Positions 14,912 to 31,040 of a stretch of 35,269 bases of DNA are shown here, one piece after another. Every line of letters begins with the position of its first letter. The stretch's first letter is position 1. Position numbers and translations under genes: made by a program. The DNA is from Candidatus Hydrogenedentota bacterium. Lineage in GTDB: Bacteria; Hydrogenedentota; Hydrogenedentia; Hydrogenedentales; SLHB01. Under the pieces are notes generated by a model, which saw only the letters and a program-made list of their open reading frames with translations, had not been told where the DNA came from and ran no database searches. The stretch is taken from the NCBI GenBank assembly GCA_019695095.1, contig JAIBAQ010000050.1, positions 1-35,269 of the forward strand, given 5' to 3'.

Positions 14912-16027
14912 TCAAATCCGCACCGCTCTTGGGTAGCCGTCGCCGATACTGGCTTTAGGCGCGTTCGATTCCCACACGCCGGGGATGTCGTTTCCACAGC
15001 GGGGGCATTCGCGTCCTCGCATCTTGTTCTCAAGGACCAGAAAACCGTGCCGGCGGATGAGCAGCTCATCGCAGGAAGGGCAGTAGGTGTTTTCTCGGTC
15101 CCCGACCATTCCGGGGAGGTTTCCTGGATAGACGAAATGTAGTCCCGCTTCTTTGCCTGCGTGATAGGCGCGTTCCAGCTCACGCACAGTGGTCCGCGGC
15201 GGTTCGGTCATCTTGTAGTCGGGATGAAAGGCCGTGACGTGCCACGGGATATCCGGCGAGACTCCAGCGAGAAACTTGGCCATGCTTTTCAGTTCTTCGT
15301 CGTTGTCGTTAAACCCCGGAACGATGAGCGTCACAACTTCCACCCAGAAGTCCATGGACTTCAGCCTTTCGATGGTATCGCAGACATTCTTAAGAACGCC
15401 GCCAAGCTTGCGGTAGTTCTTGTCGTTGAACCCCTTCAAGTCGACCTTGTAGAGGCTGACAAAGGGTTGAAGGTACGACAAGACCTCGGGTGTTGCGTTC
15501 CCATTGCTCACGTACCCGCAGACCATGCCTTCTGCCCGGGCTTCCTCGAACACGCTTACCGCCCATTCGGACGTGATGAGCGGTTCGTTGTACGTGCTGA
15601 CCACAACAGGGGTGCAGTATCGCTTTCCCAGCGTCGCCAATTCCTCGGCTTCACACACTTTTGGCAGTGCCACGGCTGCGTCGTCGCGGAGTGCCTGACT
15701 GGTGACCCAGTTCTGGCAGTATCCGCAATGGAAATCGCATCCCAGCATCCCAAATGAAAGGGCGTCACGTCCTGGGTAGGCATGGAAGAAGGGCTTTTTC
15801 TCGATGGGGTCTATCTGCAAGCCCGCGACGTAGCCGCCCGGCACCCGCAGCTTGCCGCGTTCGTTAAAGCGGACCCGGCAGATACCCGCTTTCCCTTCTT
15901 TGATTAGACAACGATGTCCGCACGCGACGCACCGGATTGCTCCGTCAGCCTCATGGAGGGCCAGTTCTGGCGCGGCTCCCATCGTCTTGCCGCTTAGTAG
16001 ATCTTTCAGTCCGACTTGAACCGACAT
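14912..16027 (-). CDS. amrS: AmrS-like radical SAM enzyme (AmmeMemoRadiSam system family)
   Basis: From the ATG at 16027, preceded by GGAGG at 5 bases, the protein is 371 residues. The radical SAM motif is CDFHCGYC (Cys97, Cys101, Cys104). An N-terminal cysteine set CVACGHRC...GIC (Cys33, 36, 40, 50) and the QIDPIEKKPFFHAYPG segment are hallmarks of the AmrS / PflA-like subgroup. A C-terminal CPSC...CPRC ribbon binds a further metal. The usual Memo and AMMECR1 partners are not adjacent. Instead it is the last gene of a run with a ferredoxin and a Rieske protein, both plausible electron donors. The reaction of AmrS enzymes is not settled. Confidence 0.85.
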   Translation of the reverse strand: MSVQVGLKDLLSGKTMGAAPELALHEADGAIRCVACGHRCLIKEGKAGICRVRFNERGKLRVPGGYVAGLQIDPIEKKPFFHAYPGRDALSFGMLGCDFHCGYCQNWVTSQALRDDAAVALPKVCEAEELATLGKRYCTPVVVSTYNEPLITSEWAVSVFEEARAEGMVCGYVSNGNATPEVLSYLQPFVSLYKVDLKGFNDKNYRKLGGVLKNVCDTIERLKSMDFWVEVVTLIVPGFNDNDEELKSMAKFLAGVSPDIPWHVTAFHPDYKMTEPPRTTVRELERAYHAGKEAGLHFVYPGNLPGMVGDRENTYCPSCDELLIRRHGFLVLENKMRGRECPRCGNDIPGVWESNAPKASIGDGYPRAVRI

Positions 16028-16074
16028 GACCACCTCCAGCCCCGGCATGCCATGACAGATGCCCGCTCCGGTGA

Positions 16075-16419
16075 CTATGCGTCGCCGTTGCCTGGCGCGG
16101 GGTCTAGCAATGAGCGCTTATTCTCCACAGACTTGTATTCATCCGCCGAGGCCAACGGCTCCTTCTTCATCGTGATGGTGGGCCATTCCTTGGAAAAACG
16201 GGCATTGAGGTCAACGTATTCGCGCCATTTCTCCGGCAACGATTCCTCGGGGTAAATCGCGTTCACGGGGCACTGATCCACGCACGCTCCGCAATCGATG
16301 CATTCGTCAGGGTCAATAACTAGACAATTGGCCCCTTCGTGGAAGCACATGACCGGACAAATGGCGACGCAATCCACGTACTTACACCGAATACAAGGCT
16401 CCGCGACGATATACGCCAT
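16075..16419 (-). CDS. fdxA: FdxA-like 7Fe (3Fe-4S/4Fe-4S) ferredoxin
   Basis: The 114-residue ferredoxin has [18 protein letters not shown], in which the second half-motif lacks one canonical cysteine as in Azotobacter-type FdI. This is followed by a full [12 protein letters not shown] motif. The predicted clusters are one [3Fe-4S] and one [4Fe-4S]. The roughly 50-residue C-terminal tail ([16 protein letters not shown]) is typical of FdxA. GGGAGAG precedes the ATG. It sits 49 bp after the Rieske gene and 47 bp before amrS on the same strand, so one redox operon is likely. Confidence 0.92.
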
Positions 16420-16468
16420 TGCCTTCTCTCCCCTCTATTGTAGCACTCCAAGTCCCCCGACTCTCGGC

Positions 16469-16771
16469 CTACGGAATCTCGACTTTAACGTCTTCTCCGT
16501 CAATGACCACCTTGTATCGGCACACGCCGTCATGGTCGCTGCCATCCTGGTACGTTACATCGAAACTCCACCCATGCCACGGGCAAGTCACCTCGGTACC
16601 TTCGATCCACCCGTCAGACAGCGGCCCGCCCGCGTGAGGGCACATATCGCTGATGGCGTAAATCGTTCCCCCCGCATTGAATAGCGCAATGCGATCATTG
16701 CCGTGCTTGACGCAGATCCCCTCGCCCTCCGGAATGTCCTTTTTCTCCGCAACCTTGATAAGTTCACTCAC
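16469..16771 (-). CDS. Small Rieske [2Fe-2S] ferredoxin (NirD/biphenyl-dioxygenase ferredoxin-like)
   Basis: A soluble Rieske domain of 100 residues with CPHAGGPLSDG and CPWHGWSFDV, the two Cys-X-His box motifs that hold the [2Fe-2S] cluster. There is no membrane anchor, so it is a cytoplasmic electron carrier rather than a bc1 subunit. I chose the GTG at 16771 because GGAG lies 8 bases before it and because the domain starts at once with VSELIKVAEKKDIPEGEG. A TTG at 16837 would add 22 residues of no clear structure. It is divergent from the superoxide dismutase gene with 205 bp between starts. Confidence 0.88.
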   Translation of the reverse strand: MSELIKVAEKKDIPEGEGICVKHGNDRIALFNAGGTIYAISDMCPHAGGPLSDGWIEGTEVTCPWHGWSFDVTYQDGSDHDGVCRYKVVIDGEDVKVEIP

Positions 16772-16976
16772 GATTCGTACTCCGCTCTTAGTTCTGCCTG
16801 ATTCTATGTCACGAAAACTGGGGTCCGTCGGGCGCAAAGTCTACGCTTGGGGTGGGCTGGCGTCAAGACTTCGCGCACCGGAAACAAAACTGGTTTGCCC
16901 TGTGTTAACTCTCCGAACAACAACCGGGACAAACAAAAAGTATCCCGAAAAGAACGGACCGTGAAGGAGGGCCAAA

Positions 16977-17704: not shown

Positions 17705-19819
17705 CTACTTGTTTTCGGAAGTGCCTTCAGACGCTTTATTACCCACCTCTCGCTCGTATTCCAGGGCGTGGTGTTCCTTGAAGTCTTCTTCCGTGATCTT
17801 TCCGGTAATCCACGACCAGTTCATTGGATAGGTGACCGGATCGAGAATCATGTAATAGAAGTGCCAGATGACGATCGTTCCAACGGCAAGCCACGCTTCG
17901 TAGAAGTGAATCAAAGCAATGATGTCGAGGACGATCTTCGGGAAATGCTTGAGGAAATCGTTGGCAAACCACATCGCGAGGCCGGTTACTCCCATGAGCA
18001 CCGATCCCCACATCATTCCCCAGTACTCCATCTTCTCGCTGTAACTGTAGCGGTCGTACTTGGGACCGTGCGGGGCAAGGCCAAGGGTGAACTTCATATT
18101 GGCAATCACATCCTTGACGTCCTTGAACTTGGGCAACATCGCCCAAAGCTCTCTTCTTCCGTACGGACGCAGCAGCGTATGCAGAGCATGGACGATGATG
18201 AGCCCGATCAGGACGGCGCCGGCGACGCGGTGAACCAGTCCTCGCGTCTCGAGACTCGCGTCTCCGAAGAACCACATCTTCAACCACCAGACATCGGGAT
18301 AGCGGAGGGCGAATCCGGAAATAGCCAGCGCCACAAACGATACCGTCAGAATGAAGTGACCGACCGTTTGTCCCGTTGAGAACCGTCGATAGGTGCCGAC
18401 GCCGCTGATTTCCTTTCGGAACTTGATGAAGACATGTCGAAGCATCAGCAGGGAATTGTGTATGACCATTCCGCCGAGAAGCAGTGCAATTGCCCAAAGG
18501 TATACCAACCGGACGATTCCCAGGGCCTTTTGTCCCGGGTCCGTGGGCATGATATGAACGGGGCCTTCCGCGAAGTTGGGTCCGGCATTCTCGTGGCACT
18601 TTCCGCAGGTTTGCGGCAAGTTCGCTTTGTTGGTCGACGACGTGGGATCGCTGGCAGGAAGGATGTTGTGCGCGCCGTGGCAACTGGCGCAGCTTGCCAC
18701 CACCTTCGATCCGGCGGCACTGGCCATACCGTGGTAACTGTCCATGTAACTGGCTTGACGCCAGACCGTGATGCCGTATCGCTCCATCTTCTTTTCGTCG
18801 TCATGGCAACTCGGGCAAGTGCTGCGCGAGACCTCTTGCTGGCTGACTGCTGACCCTTCCGCTTCAGGGCCTTGGTTGTCATGTTCGCCGTGACAATCCA
18901 CACAGGTCGGCGCATCCTTGATGCCAGCCTGAAGGGCCTTACCATGAATGCTCGCATCGAATTCCGCGGTCTCTTTGACGTGGCATTTACCGCAGGTCTT
19001 CGGAATGTTCATGCGCGCAATCGGAGAAGTGGAATCTTGAGAGGTCTTCAGATCGTGCGTGCCGTGGCATTCCACGCAGGTGGCCGCGTGCTTGCCGCTC
19101 GCCAAAGCGCGCGCATGCGCGCTCTTCATGTAGGAGTCGGAAGGTTGCATCACCGACACCATGTGCTTCTTCATCTTTTCCCGGTCGGAATGACACACAC
19201 CACATGTCTCGACCAGCCGTGACGGATGCGTCCGAGACAGCGGGTCCGTAGAGGGGCGCATATCGTGAACGCCATGACAGTCCTTACAGCTTGCCGCATC
19301 GTGGTCGCCATTCCGCAAAGCCACTGCATGAAGGCTACCCTGGTATTGCTCCATCTCTTCGGTGTGACACTCGCCACAGTTCACATCCGCCAGCTCGGGA
19401 TTATGCGGCGTCTCCGTGGCGTCGGTATGGCACATGACACAGTCCAGGCCGCCATGAGTCAACTGTGAGAAGGCTTCCTTATCGATGTACAGCGAACGGG
19501 CGGAGCCATCGGGATTCGTCGCGGATAAACTCGGATCGCCGTGACACACGTAGCAATCAACAGGTTCGGAGTCCGACGCTGGAGTCTCTTCCGGCGCGGG
19601 CGCGGGCGCTTCAAGCGCGGGCGCTTCCGGAGCTGCTTCTCCGGCAGGCGCGACGCCGGCAGGCTGAGACGAAGTCTCGGCGGTGGTCTGCGCAAACACG
19701 ATGCCGCCCTCGCCCTTCTCTCCGAGTAACAGCCCGCCTCCGAGGGTCAGACAACACAGGCCCGCCAGTAGAGAGACTCGAATCAGTGTAACGCGCTTAC
19801 GGCCATTCTTGAGATTCAC
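17705..19819 (-). CDS. Undecaheme cytochrome c fused to a cytochrome b561/FdhC-like membrane domain
   Basis: An exported electron carrier of 704 residues from the GTG at 19819 (a TTG at 19837 adds six). A signal peptide (LIRVSLLAGLCCLTLGGGLLL) is followed by a Pro/Ala/Glu-rich linker of about 40 residues. Eleven CXXCH motifs start at residues 89, 127, 148, 178, 206, 248, 276, 306, 335, 377 and 405. About five membrane helices from residue 434 onward follow, with His pairs (HRVAG...HALH; IHFYEAWLAVGTIVIWHFYYMI) typical of di-heme cytochrome b in formate dehydrogenase or thiosulfate reductase gamma subunits. Heme spacings in the first eight (38, 21, 30, 28, 42, 28, 30) match those of its upstream neighbour, so the two are paralogues. 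It starts 33 bp after that gene and probably exchanges electrons between the quinone pool and the periplasm. Confidence 0.9.
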   Translation of the reverse strand: MNLKNGRKRVTLIRVSLLAGLCCLTLGGGLLLGEKGEGGIVFAQTTAETSSQPAGVAPAGEAAPEAPALEAPAPAPEETPASDSEPVDCYVCHGDPSLSATNPDGSARSLYIDKEAFSQLTHGGLDCVMCHTDATETPHNPELADVNCGECHTEEMEQYQGSLHAVALRNGDHDAASCKDCHGVHDMRPSTDPLSRTHPSRLVETCGVCHSDREKMKKHMVSVMQPSDSYMKSAHARALASGKHAATCVECHGTHDLKTSQDSTSPIARMNIPKTCGKCHVKETAEFDASIHGKALQAGIKDAPTCVDCHGEHDNQGPEAEGSAVSQQEVSRSTCPSCHDDEKKMERYGITVWRQASYMDSYHGMASAAGSKVVASCASCHGAHNILPASDPTSSTNKANLPQTCGKCHENAGPNFAEGPVHIMPTDPGQKALGIVRLVYLWAIALLLGGMVIHNSLLMLRHVFIKFRKEISGVGTYRRFSTGQTVGHFILTVSFVALAISGFALRYPDVWWLKMWFFGDASLETRGLVHRVAGAVLIGLIIVHALHTLLRPYGRRELWAMLPKFKDVKDVIANMKFTLGLAPHGPKYDRYSYSEKMEYWGMMWGSVLMGVTGLAMWFANDFLKHFPKIVLDIIALIHFYEAWLAVGTIVIWHFYYMILDPVTYPMNWSWITGKITEEDFKEHHALEYEREVGNKASEGTSENK

Positions 19820-19852
19820 GGCTATCCATACCTTCAATCAACGGAGACCCAA

Positions 19853-22642
19853 TCACTTGTACCCAATCAGCATCGACCAGATAATCAGCAGCACCAGGCC
19901 GAAGCCAACAACCAATGCCAACGTACCGAAAATGGCCGCCCAGAATCGGAACTCTTTGGGAGCCTGATGACGAAGCCGCTTGTCCAGTTCGCCGCTCTCC
20001 CTAAGCTCCTCGTAGTAGCGCGGACGCTCTTCTTTCAGTTCTTCTTCTGGCACAAGCCCGGTGAACATCGCCATGTCCATCGGGAACTTCTCCGGTCTGA
20101 AGTGCGTGTTGAAGAAGTGAATGGTGAAGATGAATCCAACAGCTAGAAGCGCCTCGTCACTGTGGATAATTGTCGCAACATTGATTAACCATCCCGGCAA
20201 TACGCGCGTGAACGCTTCGGGGAACCACAGGAATAAGCCGGTCGATCCAATTATCGCTACGCCCCAGAAAACAGCGAAGTAGTCGAACTTCTCCCAGTAG
20301 GTCCACTCGCCATACTGCGGGCGGGGCCCCTTTCCACGGAACCATTTGACCGTCGCCACAAACTCCCTGAAATCGCGCAGAGTCGGGAGCAACGTACCCG
20401 TGCCCAGTAGAATCTGCTTCCAACTGGAGCCCGTCTCTCTCTTGCGGTGCGCAATGTAGCCAAGGTGGGCAATGAACACGACGACCATGATCACAGCGCA
20501 CACACGATGAATGATCCCGCATGCGGCAAATCCGCCGAGCGCCCACGACAACCATTGCGCCCACGGCATGTACGAGAACTTGAGCGCCATCCCCGTGAGG
20601 GCCAGCCCAAAGAAGCTCAGGATGAGCACAAAGTGCATCTGACGGACGACCGGCACAAAGCGGACCACCATCTTCGCCTCTTCACCGCCGGCCGCCGCGA
20701 TATGATCGCGCGCACGCCGCATCTCACGCCAGGAACGCGGCAGCCACATGAGCGTGTGCAAGCCAAAGAATCCGAACGTTCCTACCAGCAAGGCGGTCAT
20801 TCCCCAGAATGCATAGAAGAGCGCCGGATACTTCTCCGGGTCGTGATGGGTCGCGTGGGTCAAATAGCCCGCGAAGCGTCTGTTCGCGCCCGGATGGCAC
20901 TTTGCGCACGTCTGCACGATGTTCTCACGGCTGAGATGGGACTCCGGATTCTCCGGAGGCAGCGTATCGTGCGCGCCGTGACAGTCGTAGCACTTCGCCG
21001 CCACCGCGGAACCCAGCTTCGATACTTTGCCATGGTACGTGTCGAAATAGGTCTTGCTGACGTCTTCATGACACTTGCCGCAGGTAGTTAGAATGTCGAA
21101 CTTGAACTTCTCCTCGCTTGTACGGGAAATGCTGTGCGCCGTATGGCAACTGCTGCACACGGGAAGATTGTCGGAGTTGCTGACCAAAGACGAGTGGATA
21201 CTCTTTCGGAACTGTTGTTCTATTCCGTCGTGGCACTGGCCACAGGTATTGGCAATGTTGTTCTTGTTTACCGTGGAACGGGAATCTGATGGCGGAAGGG
21301 GGCTGTGAGCCGTGTGGCAACTCGTACACGTGGCCGTGTTGATCAAACCGCTCTTGGACAATCCCTCGCCGTGCACGCTTTCCGTGTAGTGTGCGACGAT
21401 GCCCGCAAATTCCGGCCCGAGCCTGCGCGCTGCAGCCTCGCCCTCGCGATGGCACTTCCCGCAGAGGGTAGGTACGTTGCGCGCAAAAGTGGGCGATTCG
21501 GAATCCTTCTTCGATTTTGTTGCGTGCCCGCTATGACAATCCAGGCAATCCGGCGCTTCAGGATCGCCCTTTGCCAGAAGTTGTCCGTGAATACTCTCTT
21601 TGTGCTGATTTACCTGGTCCGCATGGCAGACAGCGCAGTCCACTTTCGCAATCACCGTCGCGCAGGGGCGCTCGGCGTGACGCGGGTCCGCTCCCGTATG
21701 GCACTGGGCGCACCGCGTGTCCTTGTGCGTGGAGTGGGTTAGGTCGTCAACGTTGACCGCCGCCAATGTGCCGCCTGCCTTCTTCTCGAGCGGCTTCTCG
21801 TGACAGATCATGCAATCGCGGTCGCTCACGCCTTCTTCGTAGTACACCCTTCGAGCTTTGTGCGGCTGATGGCAATCGATACAGACCGGAACCACATCCG
21901 GCTGTTCTTCCCAAAGCTTACCGTCGATAACCTTCCTGTGAACCTGCTCAATCAGCGCGTGGCACTTGGTGCAAACACCCGAGACGTTCTTGCGGTTAAT
22001 GCTCGACTCAGGGTCTGTGTGGGGAAGCACATTGTGGGCCGTATGACAACTCGTGCAGACTGCGGTGACTTTCAGCCCCTGCCCGAAAAGACCCTGCGCG
22101 TGCATGCTTTCGTCATAGTTGGTGAGAATGTCATGCTGCGAGATGTTGCGGCTTTTCGCGACTGGGGCGTTCTCCGCGTGACAGTTGCCGCACATCTCCG
22201 GAATGTGTATGGGATTGGTTCGCGACTTAGGATCGTCCAGCGCACGGATATCGTGGGTCCCGTGGCAATCGCTGCACTGAGGCGCAAGCGGATCGTTTTT
22301 CGCGACGGACTGCCCGTGGAGGCTCTTTGCGTACAGCGCCGCCTCGTCGCCATGACAGGAACCGCAATCAACAGGTTTGAGTCCGGGTTCGTGCGGTAGT
22401 TCGGCAATGTCCGTGTGGCACGCAATGCATCCGATGGGACCGTGGATGGTGTTCGTGTAGAGCTCTTGATCGATGTACAGAGAGATCGTCTTGCCGTCAT
22501 CTGTGGTCTTGGTGAGCGAGTTGTCGCCGTGGCACATGAAGCACTGCTCGTCTTCCAGTTGTGCGCCCGCCCAAGGAACCACAAACCAGACCATGCAAGC
22601 AAGCAGAACTAGCCTTGCAGCGTCGCGCACTCGAAAGAACAT
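19853..22642 (-). CDS. 19-heme cytochrome c fused to a cytochrome b561/FdhC-like membrane domain
   Basis: From the ATG at 22642 (AGGGG about 8 bases upstream) the protein is 929 residues, with signal peptide MFFRVRDAARLVLLACMVWF and cleavage near AGAQ. Nineteen CXXCH motifs begin at residues 34, 72, 93, 123, 151, 196, 224, 254, 277, 311, 336, 366, 394, 439, 467, 496, 521, 551 and 579. Hemes 1-8 and 9-16 are a tandem duplication with an offset near 243 residues. About five membrane helices (residues 607-845) form a cytochrome b domain with HRVCA and IIHSDEALLAVGFIFTIHFF His pairs. A further helix lies near the C-terminus. A frame start at 22714 would put 24 residues before the signal peptide and is unlikely. 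The periplasmic heme wire and quinone-facing b domain in one chain suggest a membrane-anchored electron conduit. Confidence 0.92.
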   Translation of the reverse strand: MFFRVRDAARLVLLACMVWFVVPWAGAQLEDEQCFMCHGDNSLTKTTDDGKTISLYIDQELYTNTIHGPIGCIACHTDIAELPHEPGLKPVDCGSCHGDEAALYAKSLHGQSVAKNDPLAPQCSDCHGTHDIRALDDPKSRTNPIHIPEMCGNCHAENAPVAKSRNISQHDILTNYDESMHAQGLFGQGLKVTAVCTSCHTAHNVLPHTDPESSINRKNVSGVCTKCHALIEQVHRKVIDGKLWEEQPDVVPVCIDCHQPHKARRVYYEEGVSDRDCMICHEKPLEKKAGGTLAAVNVDDLTHSTHKDTRCAQCHTGADPRHAERPCATVIAKVDCAVCHADQVNQHKESIHGQLLAKGDPEAPDCLDCHSGHATKSKKDSESPTFARNVPTLCGKCHREGEAAARRLGPEFAGIVAHYTESVHGEGLSKSGLINTATCTSCHTAHSPLPPSDSRSTVNKNNIANTCGQCHDGIEQQFRKSIHSSLVSNSDNLPVCSSCHTAHSISRTSEEKFKFDILTTCGKCHEDVSKTYFDTYHGKVSKLGSAVAAKCYDCHGAHDTLPPENPESHLSRENIVQTCAKCHPGANRRFAGYLTHATHHDPEKYPALFYAFWGMTALLVGTFGFFGLHTLMWLPRSWREMRRARDHIAAAGGEEAKMVVRFVPVVRQMHFVLILSFFGLALTGMALKFSYMPWAQWLSWALGGFAACGIIHRVCAVIMVVVFIAHLGYIAHRKRETGSSWKQILLGTGTLLPTLRDFREFVATVKWFRGKGPRPQYGEWTYWEKFDYFAVFWGVAIIGSTGLFLWFPEAFTRVLPGWLINVATIIHSDEALLAVGFIFTIHFFNTHFRPEKFPMDMAMFTGLVPEEELKEERPRYYEELRESGELDKRLRHQAPKEFRFWAAIFGTLALVVGFGLVLLIIWSMLIGYK
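21088..22543 (-). repeat. Tandem duplication of an octaheme unit inside the 19-heme cytochrome
   Basis: Unit 1 (hemes 1-8) and unit 2 (hemes 9-16) have corresponding CXXCH positions offset by 243, 239, 243, 243, 243, 243, 243 and 242 residues. Local sequence agrees, for example CTSCHTAHNVLPHTDPESS with CTSCHTAHSPLPPSDSRST, and SLHGQSVAKNDPLAPQC with SIHGQLLAKGDPEAPDC. The DNA has diverged, so the event is old. Confidence 0.88.
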
Positions 22643-22752
22643 CTTCACGCCCCTTTTGAATACAGCTCTGCCACGGTAACCCGCAGTTCTTACGGCGACT
22701 TTCCCCGCCAGCAAGAATTGCCCAGATGCAAAACCATGGGGTCATGCCATGA

Positions 22753-23061: not shown

Positions 23062-23850
23062 TCACTTGGACTGGATTCTGACCGAATCGACTTCAATTCT
23101 GCCCAAAAGGCGAAGCAATCCGTCCAGAATAGTGAGCGGATGTGGAGGGCAACCGGGGATGTACAAATCGATCGGCAGCAAGCCTTCTACGCCATTGTGC
23201 TGCTGACTGTGCCCAGCATAAGGCCCACCCGAAATAGCACATGCTCCGACCACGATGACCAGCTTGGGCGCGGGGACTGCCTCGTAGGTCTTCTCAAGGG
23301 CCAACCGCATGTTCTCTGAAACGCAGCCGGTAACCAAGATACCGTCTGCGTGACGCGGCGAAGCCACCATCTGAATGCCGAACCGTCCGATATCCCATCC
23401 GATTGTGCTCAAAACGTTCACGTCCGCTTCGCACGCGTTACACCCGCCCGCGCTGACTTGCCGCAATCGCAACGAACGTCCAAACAGTCGCTTCAGTTTT
23501 GCATCAAGCGCTCGGGCGAGTCTGAGTTCATCCTGCGCTCCAACGAAGAGGTCCTCGCGCGTACGCGTGGACAAGCGATAGTCTTGGAGATGCGTGATCG
23601 CGTGTTGGGGACACGCTTCTGAGCAATCTGCACAAAACAGGCACTTTCCCAAATCAACCTGGGGAAGACGTTCGGCAGTCAGCGCTTCGGTTGGGCAAGC
23701 TTCAATGCACGCGCGGCACCCTTCCACGCACTTCGACGCATCGATCACGGGACGGCCCCTGAATCGATCGGGCATCGCAGGCGGTTCTCCGTCGGGATAC
23801 GTTATGGTGCGATGGCCTTGTTTCAGCCTGGCGAGTAACGGTTTCAGCAT
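23062..23850 (-). CDS. Fused 2x[4Fe-4S] ferredoxin and NuoB/HyfI-like small subunit of an Ehr-type complex
   Basis: The 262-residue subunit has an N-terminal ferredoxin domain (HyfH/NuoI-like) and a C-terminal NuoB/HyfI-like domain. The first cluster motif has Cys41, 45, 48 and 52, an unusual CX3CX2CX3C. The second is regular, with Cys70, 73, 76 and 80. The N2-type [4Fe-4S] ligands are present as GGCNAC (Cys137, Cys140), VGAC (Cys204) and PGCPPHP (Cys234). It should pass electrons from a ferredoxin-like donor to the membrane arm. HyfH and HyfI are separate proteins in E. coli, so the fusion is notable. AAGGA lies 7 bases before the ATG, and the gene starts 18 bp after the large-subunit gene. 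Confidence 0.88.
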   Translation of the reverse strand: MLKPLLARLKQGHRTITYPDGEPPAMPDRFRGRPVIDASKCVEGCRACIEACPTEALTAERLPQVDLGKCLFCADCSEACPQHAITHLQDYRLSTRTREDLFVGAQDELRLARALDAKLKRLFGRSLRLRQVSAGGCNACEADVNVLSTIGWDIGRFGIQMVASPRHADGILVTGCVSENMRLALEKTYEAVPAPKLVIVVGACAISGGPYAGHSQQHNGVEGLLPIDLYIPGCPPHPLTILDGLLRLLGRIEVDSVRIQSK

Positions 23851-23868: not shown

Positions 23869-25368
23869 TCACAGGTCGAACCCGCAGTACGAGAGATTGA
23901 AGCTCTTGTTGCAGAGCGGAAAATCCGAGATCGGCTGGTTGCGTAATGCCATCGATAGTCCCGTCCAATTGTGAAAGGATGGGTCCGTAACCTTGTATGA
24001 GGAAAACTTCCCGTTGCTGCCGGTTATTGCCACATGACAAATCTCGCCTCGCCAACCTTCTATCAGTGAGGCAGCAATGCTGTCAGCGGCCAGTTCGCGT
24101 CGGCTCGACAGACTATCCGAGGCGGGCAGCGAGTTGAGACGCTCTCGAATGAACACAATTGAGCGCTGTATCTCCAACCATCGGACGTACGCGCGCGAAT
24201 TCACGTCGCCGTGGTGGGCCGTTGCCAGCGGAATGTTTGTGAATTGGTATACCCCGGTCGGGTGCGTGGACCGGATATCCACCTCCACACCACACGCCCG
24301 CGCCGCAGGACCGACAAGGCCCAAATCCACGCAGGCCGTCCGGCTGACCATGCCCGTCTGCTCAAATCGCCCCTGGACGGTGGCGCTCTCCCAAAGGAGG
24401 TTGACGGCAATCTGCAAATCGCGCTCGGCAGTTTCCAGACGCTTCTTCAATTCGGTTGCACGCTCGGGCTCCAGCATAAAACGCACGCCACCGGGAACGA
24501 CCAAGGAACGTCCGAATCGGTTGCCGCAAAGCAATGCGGTCATGTTCAGGAGATCGCCTCGAATCCTGCCGCAGAACGATTGTGTGGGAAGAAAACCTAC
24601 GTCTCCCGCCAACGCGCCCAAGTCTCCCGTATGATTTGCCAGACGCTCCAGTTCAAGCGCGATTGCGCGCACCACCTGCGCGTGCGCAGACACATGAACT
24701 CGCGACAGGGCCTCGACATTCTGACTATATGCCCACGCGTGCCCAACGGTCGTGTCTCCCGCGAGTGTCTCCATCACATGAATCGTTCGATTGTGCGGGC
24801 CGTCAACCAACGCGTCTTCCACACCTCGGTGCTGATATCCCAACGAAATTTCGAGGTGGAAGACTTCTTCTCCGTGGCACTGGAAACGGAAGTGGCCGGG
24901 TTCAATGACACCGGCGTGAACCGGCCCCACGGCTACCTCATGCACTTCATCGCCATCGACTTTGAAGAAGTCCATCTCGCCAATTCGGGCATTTCGTTGG
25001 TCGGCTTTGTCAGGAAAACGGACCGGTTTCAGCCACGGATGACCTTCAGGAGCGACACCGGTTTGTTCCGCGATTTCTCTTTCAAAAAGATGGACTTGAG
25101 GGCAACTTGGCGTCAGCGATGCATAACGCTCACCTTCGAGTGCGCCAATCCCGATCAAAACGCTACCGTCCGAATCGTCCGTGAGCACGGCTACCAATTC
25201 CGGCTTGCCGCTTTCGGTTGGCCGCCGGACAAACAATGACGAAACCCTGCAACGAGCTTTCACGGCATCGATTAAGGCAACCCGAAACTGATCAATCGGC
25301 CTGCGCGGTACATCTATCAGCGCAAGCGCCTCGCCGTTCCACGTCTTCGCAAATGCAGACGAAGTCAT
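23869..25368 (-). CDS. NuoCD/HyfG-like large subunit lacking Ni-Fe ligands (Ehr-type)
   Basis: The 499-residue protein joins a NuoC-like N-domain (FEREIAEQTGVAPEGHPWL, about residues 94-113) to a NuoD/HycE-like large-subunit domain (GYQHRGVEDAL, ALELERLANHTGDLGAL, VGPAARACG). Group 4 hydrogenases bind Ni-Fe through CGIC and DPCxxC. Here the first site reads TLAGDTTVGHAWAY, with Ala203 and Thr206 in the cysteine positions. The last reads SFNLSYCGFDL, with Ser493 and Gly496, and the chain ends there. It therefore cannot bind Ni-Fe as in hydrogenases. This places it with the energy-converting hydrogenase-related (Ehr) complexes. The start ATG overlaps the HyfF-like stop (ATGA). Confidence 0.88.
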   Translation of the reverse strand: MTSSAFAKTWNGEALALIDVPRRPIDQFRVALIDAVKARCRVSSLFVRRPTESGKPELVAVLTDDSDGSVLIGIGALEGERYASLTPSCPQVHLFEREIAEQTGVAPEGHPWLKPVRFPDKADQRNARIGEMDFFKVDGDEVHEVAVGPVHAGVIEPGHFRFQCHGEEVFHLEISLGYQHRGVEDALVDGPHNRTIHVMETLAGDTTVGHAWAYSQNVEALSRVHVSAHAQVVRAIALELERLANHTGDLGALAGDVGFLPTQSFCGRIRGDLLNMTALLCGNRFGRSLVVPGGVRFMLEPERATELKKRLETAERDLQIAVNLLWESATVQGRFEQTGMVSRTACVDLGLVGPAARACGVEVDIRSTHPTGVYQFTNIPLATAHHGDVNSRAYVRWLEIQRSIVFIRERLNSLPASDSLSSRRELAADSIAASLIEGWRGEICHVAITGSNGKFSSYKVTDPSFHNWTGLSMALRNQPISDFPLCNKSFNLSYCGFDL

Positions 25369-26801
25369 GGCATCACCTGAACATAGTCAACGGCTTGATA
25401 AAGAATCGTGCGCAGCGTCTCGGGCAGGTGAACTCCAAGCACCAAGACAAACGTGAGCAAGACTACGATCGGTACAACTGTCCCCGCGTTGTCTCTGTAG
25501 TCTCGCTTGGAGGGAGAATCGTCAGCGCCGCCCATGACAACGGCAACTACCGTCTTCCCCATGCCTGCGAATACGAGGAACAGGAGCAGCAGGTACGCGG
25601 CGGCGATGCCGTATCGGTATTGTGTCATCGCTGCCTGCAAAATGGTTATCACGCTCACAAAGGGACCAAACGGAGGCGAACCGGCAACAGCAAAGAACCC
25701 GACCAGAAACAAACCTCCCGACAAAGGAACGCGCGACATGGCGCCCCGGACATCGGCGGAGGACTTGCTATCGTAGGCGCGGTGGATGTTTCCGGAAGAC
25801 AGGAACATCACACCTTTTGCGAGCGCGTTATTCAGCATGTGCAGCAACGCGCCGAAGAGTCCCAAGCCACCCAGCCCGGCTCCAATCGCCAAAATTCCCA
25901 TCTGCTCAACACTCGAATAGGCGAGCATGCGCTTGAAGTCTCGTTGACGGGCAAGAAATGCTGCGGCAAGGGCCATCGAAGACACGCCCAGTATGATCCA
26001 CGCGCGACTGACCATCGCTGCCTGTCCGGCCGCGACCAGAATCATGGAAACTCTAAGAATGGCGACGAACGCGCAACTCGTCAGTCCGCCCGCGAGCATG
26101 GCCCCCACAAGCCCTGGCGCTTCCCCATAGGCATCCGGCTTCCACGTGTGCATGGGCGCCAATCCCATTTTTGTTCCGTACCCTACGAGCAGCGTGAGAA
26201 ATGCAGCGCGCAACCACGGCGCCGAGAAATTGTGAGCCGAGCGCACCAAATCCGACAGCACCAATTTTGGGGCGTCTCCCGCGGTCAGAGTCGAATACGC
26301 AAGGAAATATAGTCCAAGTAGTGCCAACGCGATTCCCACCGAACAGACGATCAGGTACTTCCACGTTGCTTCGATCGCTTTCGGCGTATATCGAAAATGA
26401 ATCAATGGGGCCGCGGCCAGGGTGGTTGCTTCCACGGCGACCCACAGCACCCCCAAATGCTGCGCATACGCAACAAGCGACATCATCGCCACGAGTATGA
26501 GCAAACAGGCGACAAAGTTCCGGTTGGAGCGCTCGTTGCGAAACCGGAGGTATCCGGGCGCGTAGAATGAGCAGCACAGGAACAGTCCGCTCACCGAAAG
26601 TAGGAGTATCTTGCCGAGCGGGTCCAACATCATCCATTCATCACCTACCGGAGCGTACTCCTGCGCAACGGCATTCACCGTCGCGCCGGCATGCACTACA
26701 CCCACGAACGGTAGCACGTAAGGACGCAGCCGGTTGGATGGCACCGCATACGCCATGCAAGCGGCAAGGACTGGTCCTAATATGAGTAAAATCAAAGCCA
26801 C
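25365..26801 (-). CDS. HyfF/NuoN-like antiporter-type membrane subunit
   Basis: The 478-residue polytopic protein has about 13-14 hydrophobic helices. Family markers include a Glu in TM5 (LWVAVEATTLAAAP), the discontinuous helix region with Lys/His (APMHTWKPDAYGEAPGLVGAMLAGG) and YSSVEQMGILAIG. These belong to the proton-pumping MrpA/D-like subunits of complex I and group 4 hydrogenases, in the HyfF branch. The GTG at 26801 follows an AAGGA at 6 bases, and the site overlaps the HyfE-like stop region. It would carry ions across the inner membrane, coupled to electron flow in the HyfG/HyfI-like arm. Confidence 0.9.
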   Translation of the reverse strand: MALILLILGPVLAACMAYAVPSNRLRPYVLPFVGVVHAGATVNAVAQEYAPVGDEWMMLDPLGKILLLSVSGLFLCCSFYAPGYLRFRNERSNRNFVACLLILVAMMSLVAYAQHLGVLWVAVEATTLAAAPLIHFRYTPKAIEATWKYLIVCSVGIALALLGLYFLAYSTLTAGDAPKLVLSDLVRSAHNFSAPWLRAAFLTLLVGYGTKMGLAPMHTWKPDAYGEAPGLVGAMLAGGLTSCAFVAILRVSMILVAAGQAAMVSRAWIILGVSSMALAAAFLARQRDFKRMLAYSSVEQMGILAIGAGLGGLGLFGALLHMLNNALAKGVMFLSSGNIHRAYDSKSSADVRGAMSRVPLSGGLFLVGFFAVAGSPPFGPFVSVITILQAAMTQYRYGIAAAYLLLLFLVFAGMGKTVVAVVMGGADDSPSKRDYRDNAGTVVPIVVLLTFVLVLGVHLPETLRTILYQAVDYVQVMP

Positions 26802-26803
26802 GG

Positions 26804-27457
26804 CTATTCCTTCAACGTCGTGAGGTGGGCCGTATCCAACGACGAGAAGGTCAATCGGATATGGTTGATGATGATTCCCATCACGAATACGCCCACAAGG
26901 ACGTCAAGCAACACAGCCAACTCGACGAGGAGTGGCATTGCGTCGATCAGGAGCAAGCCAAAGATGAATACGCCGTTTTCAAGCACCAGGTATCCGACCA
27001 CCTGAGTGATCGCCTTGTGCCGTGTAGTAAGCAGGATAAAGCCGCTGAGTACGGTCGCGAAGGAGACGGAGACGACAAGCGTACCTTGCTGTCCATTCAC
27101 CAAGGGCAACGAGTCCGCGAATATCATGGCGAGTCCGGTACCTGCCGCTCCAAGCATCAGTGACGGAATGAATCCGAGAAGCGGCTCCACTTCGCGGCGA
27201 ATGTGGGCGTCGCGTATCGCTTTGAAAAGCAGTTTGGGTATCACCACCCCTTTGACGGTAGCGGTCAGTAGGCACAATCCAAGCACACGCAAGCCGGGAG
27301 TTGCCTCCTGCAACAGCGGCATGAGTCCCAACAAGGCACCCTGAATGCCAACCGTCCGTATCAATACGCGCAATCGGCTGGAACCCAGCGCGACAAAGTC
27401 GAGCAGTACGGTCAGTATAAGAGCCAAACTCAGCATTGCATTCATAGTCCCGTTCAT
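26804..27457 (-). CDS. HyfE-like membrane subunit
   Basis: From the ATG at 27457, which overlaps the HyfC-like stop by 4 bp (ATGA), the protein is 217 residues with about seven membrane helices. The second half carries a NuoK/MrpC-like pattern (VVGYLVLENGVFIFGLLL, with the Glu that NuoK uses in proton transfer). HyfE proteins are hydrogenase-4-specific and have a NuoK-like C-terminal half, which fits. An upstream in-frame start at 27496 would lie inside the previous gene and add a polar, Arg/Val-rich leader, so it is rejected. Confidence 0.85.
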   Translation of the reverse strand: MNGTMNAMLSLALILTVLLDFVALGSSRLRVLIRTVGIQGALLGLMPLLQEATPGLRVLGLCLLTATVKGVVIPKLLFKAIRDAHIRREVEPLLGFIPSLMLGAAGTGLAMIFADSLPLVNGQQGTLVVSVSFATVLSGFILLTTRHKAITQVVGYLVLENGVFIFGLLLIDAMPLLVELAVLLDVLVGVFVMGIIINHIRLTFSSLDTAHLTTLKE

Positions 27458-28371
27458 CGCAACAACAACGACGCGCCGAAGGCGGCCAACAGGCACGCGG
27501 ACACCAGAAGTTTTGGGACCGTCACCATTCGAAGCCGCGCTATCGACGACTCGACGATTCCAATCGCAATCCCAATCGCGGCCATTGCGACAAGGAAGAC
27601 CAGCCAGTCAAACGGGGAGCCCAAGCCGGTCTTTGGAACGATTAGATCGACAACAAGAACAGACATGACAAATAGCTTCACGGCGGCTGAGTAGACAATC
27701 ATCCCGAAAGCAGGGCCGCTGTGATCGAGCACCATCACCTCGTGAATCATGGTGAGTTCAAGATGCGTGTTGGGGTCGTCCACGGGTATTCGCGAGTTCT
27801 CGGAGAGTAGAACCGCAAACCATGCCACGACAAGCAACGCGATAATTCCGATCGAGGCGACGGAACCGGTAGACGTGGGTGCGGCAAGCATGTGTGATAG
27901 GCTCAAGCTTTCGGTCAGCCGCGCCAACACGGCGAAACCGAGGAACAAAGCCGGTTCCGCAAAACTGGAGAAGGTGACTTCTCGTGCGGCCCCCATCCCC
28001 TCAAACGATGAACCCGTATCCAAGGCGGCGCTCGCCGTGAAGAAGCGGCCAAGGGCAAGAAGATACGCGGCTAAAATAACGTCTCCCGTGAAAGATACCG
28101 GCGCCGCGTGCATTCCGAATGGAATGAGAAGACCCGCGAGAAGTACCGTCGTTAACGACACGGCAGGCCCCATGAGAAAGACCCATGTGGTGGTCCTGCT
28201 CAGCGTCAGGTCTTTTCGCATCAACTTGAAAACATCGGAGTACACCTGCGTCAGCGGCGGCCCTACCCGGCCGCCAAACCAAGCTTTGGTCTTGTTCACA
28301 ATCCCCAGCACGAGCGGAGGAAGCAGTACCAGCACCAGAAGATGGATGACTATGTCGAAGAACCTTGCCAT
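27454..28371 (-). CDS. HyfC/NuoH-like membrane subunit
   Basis: The 305-residue integral membrane protein belongs to the NuoH/HycD/HyfC family, which forms the quinone-proximal heel of the complex. Conserved loops are GRVGPPLTQVYSDVFKLMRKD, FAEPALFLGF and the acidic ENSRIPVDDPNTHLELTMIHEVMVLDHSGP. These keep the charged residues of the E-channel. I prefer the ATG at 28371; a GTG two codons upstream (28377) is possible. The spacing to the HyfB-like stop is a few bases, so translation is coupled. Confidence 0.92.
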   Translation of the reverse strand: MARFFDIVIHLLVLVLLPPLVLGIVNKTKAWFGGRVGPPLTQVYSDVFKLMRKDLTLSRTTTWVFLMGPAVSLTTVLLAGLLIPFGMHAAPVSFTGDVILAAYLLALGRFFTASAALDTGSSFEGMGAAREVTFSSFAEPALFLGFAVLARLTESLSLSHMLAAPTSTGSVASIGIIALLVVAWFAVLLSENSRIPVDDPNTHLELTMIHEVMVLDHSGPAFGMIVYSAAVKLFVMSVLVVDLIVPKTGLGSPFDWLVFLVAMAAIGIAIGIVESSIARLRMVTVPKLLVSACLLAAFGASLLLR

Positions 28372-28377
28372 GCTCAC

Positions 28378-30348
28378 CTACACGGTCGCCAGTAGGACCA
28401 GCAATGCGGCCACGATGTAGACCAAGTACAACTGTGCGCGTCCTTGTTGCATGACGCGCACAAGCGAGAACACGTCCGCGGTGCGCCTGAACAGGGGAAC
28501 TACCAACTGGTCAAGGACAGTCTCCGGCACGTGGCTTCGAAATACGTTGGTTTTGGGCCAATAGCCTTCGAAATGCACTTTCGAAGTATGTGGCCGTAGC
28601 GCCCACCCAAAGAGATTGACCAACATCTGCGCGAATGACGATGCCGTGTACTGCATGCGCGCCGCGGGCGCGATGTAGCCGCAGTCCCACGTTCCGGTGT
28701 ACGTGGTCGTGCCTCGCTTTCGGGCACGCCATAGCATGAAGAACACGACCGCGGTCCCCCCCGCGACAACAGAGCCAGCCGCCATCAGAGGAAGGATAGG
28801 GGCAATCTCAAACAGACTCGGCGTAAGGTCATGATGAGCGAACTGCCAGTCGGTTGTTGCGCGGTCCATAAATGCGACCACGACGACAGGCGCAAGTCCG
28901 ATCAGAAAACACAAACCCGCGAGAAGACGCATTGGCACAGCCATGCTGGGCGAACATTCGGACCCTGATTCTGCAATCTCGGTACGCGGCTCACCCAAGA
29001 AGACAATGCCGTAGACCTTTACGAAGCAGGCGACAGCCAATCCGCCGATGAGCGCGAGGGCCGCCGCGGTAAACGGAGCCAATGGCCAGGATCGCGCGTC
29101 CAGAGCGTAAGCCCGAAACAATCCGATGTAAACGAACAACTCGCTGATGAAGCCGTTCAGTGGGGGCAAGCCGCAAATAGCCACGGCCCCGATCAAGAAC
29201 ATGAGCGCCGTATGTGGCATGCGCTTAGACAGCCCGCCCAAGCGCTCGATATCGCGCGTATGAGTCGCGTGTATGACTGCCCCGGCGGCCAAGAATAGGA
29301 GTGCCTTGAAAAGCCCGTGATTCCAGACGTGAAGAACCGCCCCGGCCATACCCAGCGCGACAAGCGCAGGCTGCCCCAGCGAACGCCCAACCATCGCCAG
29401 GCCAAACCCCATGAAGATGATCCCGATGTTTTCAATGCTGTGGTACGCAAGCAGGCGTTTTATATCGTGCTGTCCCAACGCAAAGGCGACACCCAAGACA
29501 CCCGATACCACGCCCAGCGCCACGAGCAGACTCCCCCACCATAGTGGCGGATGGGGAAACAGCCAACACACGCGCATGACGCCATACACGCCCATCTTGA
29601 TCACGACGCCGGAGAACAGCGCTGAAACGTGGCTGGGGGCGTTGGCGTGCGCGGAAGGCAGCCACACGTGCAAAGGGAATAGCCCTGCCTTAATGCCGAA
29701 ACCCGCAACAGCGATGAGGAAAAGCAAAGCGCCGAATGCGGGCTGCTCTGAGAATGGCTTCAGTTCGAGCGTGCCGGTGATTGCGAAGTAGATGGCAAAG
29801 AAACCGAACAGAAGCAACGAACTCAAGTGCGTCGCGACGAGATAGACCCAACCGGCCTCTTGGACGTCCTTCTTCTCATGTTCCGTGGCAATCAGGAAGA
29901 ATCCGGACAAGGCCATGATTTCCCACGCGGTCAGAAACAGCAATCCGTTGCGCGCGATGAGAAGTAGGGCCATCGCCGAAGTCATGAGTCCGTAGAAGAA
30001 ACGCAGCCGCACACCATTTTCCGGGTGCTCCGCTTGCGCCCAGTACGACAGGCCATAAAGCGCGCCCAAGGCCGACAAAAGGAACACGGACACTAGAAAC
30101 GCAGCACTGAGACCGTCGAGCGTCACGTGGAATGCGCCGCCGGGTACTGCCCACGGCACGTTCAATTCAGGCGTCGCATCGTTTGCGAAGGTGAGTACCG
30201 CGCCTACAGCACCGATGGAGGTTGCGGCCAATGTGATCCCAAATGACCAGCGCTGCCCGGTGTCGGAGACACGGGAAAAGACAAGCGACGGAAGTCCGCT
30301 GCATGCCAACAGCAGTATCGCGGCCAGGACTAGAGTGAGACTGGTCAC
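28378..30348 (-). CDS. HyfB-like antiporter-type membrane subunit
   Basis: The 656-residue protein has around 16 hydrophobic helices. It has the NuoL/M/N hallmarks TAWEIMALSGFFLI (TM5 Glu), LPSAHANAPSHVSALFSGVVIKMGVYGV (conserved Lys helix) and HSIENIGIIFMG. The C-terminal extension WDCGYIAPAARMQYTASSFAQMLVNLFGW is diagnostic of HyfB/HycC rather than NuoL. The GTG start at 30348 has GGGGA 8 bases upstream and lies 11 bp after the EIIA-fusion stop. With the HyfF-like protein it gives the complex two antiporter-type pump modules. Confidence 0.92.
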   Translation of the reverse strand: MTSLTLVLAAILLLACSGLPSLVFSRVSDTGQRWSFGITLAATSIGAVGAVLTFANDATPELNVPWAVPGGAFHVTLDGLSAAFLVSVFLLSALGALYGLSYWAQAEHPENGVRLRFFYGLMTSAMALLLIARNGLLFLTAWEIMALSGFFLIATEHEKKDVQEAGWVYLVATHLSSLLLFGFFAIYFAITGTLELKPFSEQPAFGALLFLIAVAGFGIKAGLFPLHVWLPSAHANAPSHVSALFSGVVIKMGVYGVMRVCWLFPHPPLWWGSLLVALGVVSGVLGVAFALGQHDIKRLLAYHSIENIGIIFMGFGLAMVGRSLGQPALVALGMAGAVLHVWNHGLFKALLFLAAGAVIHATHTRDIERLGGLSKRMPHTALMFLIGAVAICGLPPLNGFISELFVYIGLFRAYALDARSWPLAPFTAAALALIGGLAVACFVKVYGIVFLGEPRTEIAESGSECSPSMAVPMRLLAGLCFLIGLAPVVVVAFMDRATTDWQFAHHDLTPSLFEIAPILPLMAAGSVVAGGTAVVFFMLWRARKRGTTTYTGTWDCGYIAPAARMQYTASSFAQMLVNLFGWALRPHTSKVHFEGYWPKTNVFRSHVPETVLDQLVVPLFRRTADVFSLVRVMQQGRAQLYLVYIVAALLVLLATV

Positions 30349-30359
30349 GGTTGCGTCCC

Positions 30360-31040
30360 CTATCCTGTCCCTTGGGTCCGGCTGGAGGACACGGCGTCTT
30401 GTTCAATGTGCCGTATGCGCGTCACCACCACTTCCGTGCCTGCTCGCGCCTCCAGCAACCGTAGCATTTCCGGATCTTCCAGGATACTGCCCAGTTTGGA
30501 GAGCAGGTGCAGATGTGCCGAGATCGTCGGTGTGACCATCGTGAACAAGGCGAAGACCGGCTGAAGATCGATAGCCTCGAAGTCGATGGGATGGTTCAGG
30601 TAGGCCAACATGACCACGGGCTGGGTCACCCGCAGCAGAATGGGATCGCGCGCATGCGGTATGGCAATCCCTTTGCCAAAGCCGGTCGTACCCTGCCGCT
30701 CGCGTGCCAGAAGCATCTCCAGCAGGTAGCCCCGGTCAGTGCTTTCGGGTAACGGCAAAAGAGCAACCACCTGCTCGAATACGCTGCGCTTGTCGTTTCC
30801 ACTAACTCCGTGACGGACGCCGCCCCGGAGAACCGATTCTTCAAGCGAAGATTGCCGGGAATCGCCTTCCAGCGTGAACGGCACACGGCGCTTGTGCGCC
30901 CATTCGACGAGCCGGACCCGGCTGAAGTGATACCGATCATTGAAGCGCGCCGCAGGCAATTCGTCTTCCTGGACCCAACGGTAGATGGTGTCTTCACTTA
31001 CGCGGAATAGCCTGGCTGCATCGCTGACGGACATCTGCAT
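30360..31040 (-). CDS. Excisionase-type HTH fused to a PtsN-like EIIA domain; regulator of the Ehr-like operon
   Basis: The 226-residue fusion has an N-terminal helix-turn-helix (MSVSDAARLFRVSEDTIYRWVQEDELPAARFNDRYHF, about residues 3-40). After a linker it has an EIIA domain of the PtsN/fructose type, with the phosphorylatable His129 in GIAIPHARD. The EIIA domain should sense the phosphorylation state of PTS or nitrogen-PTS, while the HTH could contact DNA. No PTS permease or HPr is in the window. It is the gene before hyfB with only 11 bp between, so it is made together with the complex it may control. Confidence 0.85.
   Translation of the reverse strand: MQMSVSDAARLFRVSEDTIYRWVQEDELPAARFNDRYHFSRVRLVEWAHKRRVPFTLEGDSRQSSLEESVLRGGVRHGVSGNDKRSVFEQVVALLPLPESTDRGYLLEMLLARERQGTTGFGKGIAIPHARDPILLRVTQPVVMLAYLNHPIDFEAIDLQPVFALFTMVTPTISAHLHLLSKLGSILEDPEMLRLLEARAGTEVVVTRIRHIEQDAVSSSRTQGTG

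Follow-up and report, generated by a model that had tools for sequence, protein, structure and literature searches.

The window, a stretch of 35,269 nucleotides from a Candidatus Hydrogenedentota genome, contains an operon of six genes, which overlap or lie no more than 18 bases apart and encode in turn HyfB-type, NuoH-type, HyfE-type and HyfF-type proteins, EhrL and EhrS (Table 1). This is the complete gene set of the Ech-hydrogenase-related (Ehr) complex: A, B, C, D, L and S, that is, NuoL/HyfB-, NuoH-, HyfE- and HyfF-type subunits with an Fe-S small subunit. The names follow PMC6688271, with which PMC7894505 agrees. Since the gene order is the published ehrABCDLS, with ehrL fifth of the six, we regard it as near certain that the product of ehrL is the group-4-hydrogenase/NuoCD-type large subunit of this already described complex.

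Table 1. Features of the ehr locus, in coordinates of the window.
Feature	Position	Strand	Description
HTH_17 + PTS_EIIA_2 gene	30360..31040	(-)	11 bases upstream of ehrA; candidate phosphorylation site His129
ehrA	28378..30348	(-)	NuoL/HyfB-type antiporter-like subunit
ehrB	27454..28377	(-)	NuoH/HycD-type membrane anchor
ehrC	26804..27496	(-)	HyfE-type membrane subunit; PRK11492, hydrogenase 4 membrane subunit
ehrD	25365..26801	(-)	antiporter-like subunit, HyfF type
ehrL	23869..25368	(-)	large subunit without Ni-Fe cysteines; joins an N-terminal NuoC-like to a NuoD/HycE-like domain
CGIC equivalent in ehrL (N-terminal motif)	24751..24762	(-)	codons A203-G204-D205-T206, from the alignment
DPCxxC equivalent in ehrL	23869..23898	(-)	codons N491-L-S493-Y-C495-G496-F-D498-L499 and stop, from the alignment
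ehrS	23062..23850	(-)	ferredoxin domain for two [4Fe-4S] clusters (NuoI/HycF type), joined to a NuoB/HycG-type domain

The locus resembles the Ehr loci of Geobacter (GSU0739-0745), Methylacidiphilum and Nitrospira in gene content and order, in the large subunit devoid of CxxC and in the antiporter-like subunits; in the features compared, only the number of ehrA genes differs. Here a single ehrA precedes ehrB, whereas many relatives have two. The Geobacter, Geomonas and Citrifermentans loci have an identical gene order and share 53-59% identity over nearly the full EhrL, which relates the window locus to the Ehr of Geobacteraceae. In six of the related loci the operon is preceded or followed by extra ehrA-type (NuoL-like) genes; the number of antiporter-like subunits varies by lineage. 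Four of these six (about 15-19 kb into the loci; verrucomicrobial and unclassified) also have, downstream of the first ehr operon, a second EhrL about 35% identical to the first; it too is without Ni-Fe cysteines (GDS ... NLSYSG, ending DR), and these copies apparently represent a tandem second Ehr type. No second EhrL was found in the genome of the window.

EhrL consists of 499 amino acids, begins with ATG and its reading frame shares 4 bases with the preceding gene. It matches the Pfam families Complex1_49kDa (E 5e-33) and Complex1_30kDa. The nearest solved structure is E. coli HycE (7z0s_E, E 2e-39), followed by MbhL (6cfw_L) and Nqo4 (2fug_4), and a family profile leaves this order unchanged. 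The AlphaFold model (mean pLDDT 86) superimposes on HycE with Z 43 and rmsd 2.4 over 487 aligned residues, and HycE is also ranked top by Foldseek. The statement of the earlier note that the architecture of the complex is kept despite the loss of Ni-Fe is supported. The model was made without EhrS, and its pLDDT falls below 50 at loop 148-158 and residues 495-499; since these cavity loops are poorly predicted without the small subunit, the model is unusable for the cavity.

EhrL and 80 relatives from genome contigs, which share 53-64% identity with the EhrL of the window (81 sequences in all), were aligned with E. coli K-12 HycE, HyfG and NuoCD. The relatives come from Hydrogenedentota, Acidobacteriota, Planctomycetota, Verrucomicrobiota, Kiritimatiellota, Spirochaetota, Omnitrophota, Desulfuromonadales and other groups. 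The columns of the four Ni-Fe ligands are occupied in EhrL by Ala203, Thr206, Ser493 and Gly496, exactly the residues given in the earlier note, so that all four cysteines are lost. Position 203 is Ala in 72 sequences, Ser in 6 and Cys in 3; position 206 is Thr in 75 and Ser in 6; Ser493 and Gly496 are found in all 81, and Gly204 and Asp205 are likewise invariant. This uniformity greatly exceeds what chance would give. The C-terminal motif NKSFNLSYCG(F/H)DL is near letter-perfect across the family, and each protein stops right after it. The CxxC ... DPCxxC signature of group 4 [NiFe]-hydrogenases is absent from EhrL, and no cysteine pair stands elsewhere in its place: none of the ten cysteines of the protein forms part of a CxxC. 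CRAC motifs in two relatives and a CxxC near the N-terminus in four others were considered as Ni-Fe ligands and rejected, cysteine being absent at positions 206, 493 and 496 throughout the family. Judging by the alignment, none of the relatives examined has kept the Ni-Fe site. The missing motifs are already on record as the hallmark of Ehr (PMC10284858, PMC7304191, PMC6349859, PMC12342949), and the window EhrL is hence a further member of a known complex with a known loss. The same papers call the function of Ehr unknown or merely suspected, and the cited Ehr literature reports no biochemical activity of any Ehr complex.

Neither the maturation machinery nor the cleavable C-terminal tail of a group 4 [NiFe]-hydrogenase is found. 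HycE and HyfG continue for 32 more residues from the column where EhrL ends, and in HycE this tail is removed by HycI after Arg537. EhrL ends where HycE ends after maturation, and the tail is absent from all 81 sequences. The genome of the window (95.3% complete) gave no match to HypD or to the HycI protease family; among 50 other EhrL-bearing genomes there were 14, some possibly incomplete, in which HypD was not found either.

Part of the hydrogenase pocket is nevertheless kept. Among the solved relatives, the E. coli formate hydrogenlyase and hydrogenases 3 and 4 (HycE, HyfG; group 4a) are the closest and have a similar domain layout; Ehr shares with them Glu156 (the proton-transfer Glu, equivalent to MbhL Glu21), His159, Arg440 and the hydrogenase-type cysteines of the proximal cluster, but lacks the four Ni-Fe ligands and the maturation tail. 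Glu156 and Arg440 are present in 81 of 81 sequences. In hydrogenases the PR loop lies near the Ni-Fe cyanides; its equivalent in EhrL is W439-R440, with Trp in place of Pro and both residues invariant. Across the 81 sequences the replacements are fixed rather than drifting, and from its residues the former site looks rebuilt, not decayed. The opposite view, that EhrL is the decaying remnant of a hydrogenase in a nonfunctional complex, draws on the lost ligands and on PMC13194489, where the ehr of Geobacter is read as nonfunctional. We consider it extremely improbable: the invariance at and around the site spans several phyla, the operon and the Fe-S ligands are intact, and the Ehr proteins are expressed in G. 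sulfurreducens (PMC7894505), so that conservation and expression together argue against it.

As the earlier note had also stated, the ligands of the N2-type cluster are intact in the partner subunit. In EhrS this proximal cluster has the ligands C137, C140, C204 and C234, each of which is kept in 74-75 of 75 sequences, and the ferredoxin domain has eight further cysteines, which are almost invariant. The first proximal-cluster pair is spaced CxxC, as in HycG/HyfI, whereas in NuoB the two cysteines are adjacent. In EhrB, D201, H205 and H212 are invariant and specific to Ehr, while HycD/HyfC have Leu/Val, Glu and Gln there; this stretch would correspond to the TM5-6 loop that faces the cavity in MBS.

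Complex I NuoD/Nqo4 is similar to EhrL in its fold and in the absence of Ni-Fe ligands, and the earlier note had suggested that the vacated cavity could bind quinone as in NuoD. The residues do not support this. In Nqo4 the quinone headgroup is liganded by His38 and Tyr87 (PMC7684303); in EhrL these become Ile155 and Gly204, each in 81 of 81 sequences, and so the headgroup ligands of the NuoD-type quinone site are absent. Ehr might still be a ferredoxin:menaquinone oxidoreductase, or work in reverse, with quinone held by other residues in the complex I cavity: the EhrL fold is common to complex I subunits, the cavity geometry is conserved across MBH, MBS and complex I (PMC7684303), and a NuoD-type fragment at a contig end of the same genome makes quinone respiration likely. 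Against these points stand the two invariant replacements and the spacing of the proximal-cluster cysteines, which is of the hydrogenase type and not the adjacent pair of complex I, and we find this reading possible but rather doubtful.

The Pyrococcus sulfane reductase MBS/Mbx is, like Ehr, group-4-related, has lost the Ni-Fe chemistry and has no equivalents of His38 and Tyr87, without which it reduces polysulfide (PMC7684303). However, of the four cysteines MBS still has two, and it has no equivalent of MbhL Glu21 (PMC7684303), while EhrL keeps none of the cysteines and retains the Glu. The proximal cluster of MBS has a shortened motif and three Cys ligands; the EhrS motif aligns without gaps with HycG/HyfI, which argues for four. 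By its residues, the Ehr cavity thus appears to be neither the NuoD quinone site nor the MBS site.

The gene upstream of ehrA accompanies Ehr across phyla. Of about 55 loci with enough flank, 47 have a homologue of this HTH-EIIA gene no more than 350 bases from a gene of the ehrA or ehrB type, and the candidate phosphorylation site is kept in 44 of 45. Among 60 genomes (that of the window and its kin), 11 have a strong HTH-EIIA homologue (E <1e-36, against 1e-16 for the next best); all 11 belong to the 14 that bear EhrL (E <1e-200), and none of the 46 others has one (Fisher p 1e-9, uncorrected for kinship or gene adjacency). HPr is encoded in the genome of the window. We found no mention of an Ehr-PTS link in the literature, the coverage of which was partial. 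This conserved neighbour is one reason to ask whether Ehr is mainly a cation/proton antiporter under HTH-EIIA control that serves pH or K+/Na+ homeostasis and is gated by its redox arm. EhrA and EhrD are Mrp-like, a role in pH homeostasis was suggested in PMC6688271, and in E. coli a K+/H+ antiporter is regulated by PtsN, a protein of the EIIA-Ntr type (PMC11808508). We think it distinctly unlikely, since the fully conserved Fe-S wire and the rebuilt cavity suggest that redox chemistry is still needed.

Besides the ehr and HTH-EIIA genes, no gene family turns up in more than 8 loci; clusters of 14-21 ‘conserved’ ORFs antisense to ehr genes were left out of this count as shadows. The absence of a recurring companion enzyme family fits a diffusible donor. 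It also bears on the proposal, made for Margulisbacteria and Geobacter, that Ehr and formate dehydrogenase form a formate-linked pump: this FDH-Ehr hypothesis (PMC6349859) agrees with the proteins made in G. sulfurreducens, where Ehr is more abundant with formate (PMC7894505), but no companion enzyme gene is conserved across the ehr loci, no formate dehydrogenase gene is seen among the ORFs of the window, the single clear molybdopterin oxidoreductase match genome-wide lies on another contig, and without the Ni-Fe ligands H2 production is not expected at the site. For the complex described here we judge a formate-linked pump improbable.

Downstream of ehrS, two adjacent genes (17705-19837 and 19853-22714, both on the minus strand) encode large proteins that each combine a multihaem c-type part with a cytochrome b561-like membrane domain. 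As partners of Ehr these multihaem cytochrome b genes (17705-22714) were rejected, a homologue being near ehr in 0 of 80 loci. Further on (14912-16837, minus strand), the translations, judged by eye, show in succession a radical SAM protein resembling AmmeMemoRadiSam, a 2[4Fe-4S] ferredoxin and a ferredoxin of the Rieske type.

Altogether, we suggest as the probable reading that Ehr is a ferredoxin-linked ion-pumping complex, which has given up H2 chemistry and has a rebuilt substrate cavity without Ni-Fe. Reduced ferredoxin or another low-potential donor would pass electrons to the two [4Fe-4S] clusters of EhrS and from there they would flow to the proximal cluster. A small acceptor, held otherwise than quinone in NuoD, would then be reduced in the rebuilt cavity, where EhrL, EhrS and EhrB meet, with proton uptake from the Glu156/His159 side. 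Through EhrB the redox reaction would be linked to the antiporter-like EhrA and EhrD, which would move ions, and the reaction could run in reverse too. The HTH-EIIA protein encoded next door probably adjusts the expression of ehr.

More tentatively, the former Ni-Fe site may be an active site of a new kind, with no metal or a different one, protonatable and shared by EhrL (Glu156, His159, Asp205, Thr/Ser206, Trp439, Lys488, Ser493, Cys495) and EhrB (Asp201, His205, His212), whose substrate would be neither protons, nor quinone bound as in NuoD, nor polysulfide bound as in MBS, and which would be controlled by a dedicated phosphorelay protein of the HTH-EIIA type. This remains a speculative possibility, which we consider unlikely to hold in full.

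What this analysis adds is that the replacements are fixed in 81 sequences, that HypD and HycI are not found in the genome, that the NuoD quinone ligands are absent, with Glu156, Arg440 and the hydrogenase-type CxxC spacing kept, and that Ehr has an HTH-EIIA companion. Ehr, kin to both hydrogenases and complex I, is widespread, in Geobacter, Nitrospira, Planctomycetota, Verrucomicrobiota, Acidobacteriota and others. Together with the retained proton-transfer Glu, the fixed replacements, the lost quinone ligands and the conserved HTH-EIIA neighbour bring the question of its substrate down to a few residues and one putative regulator.
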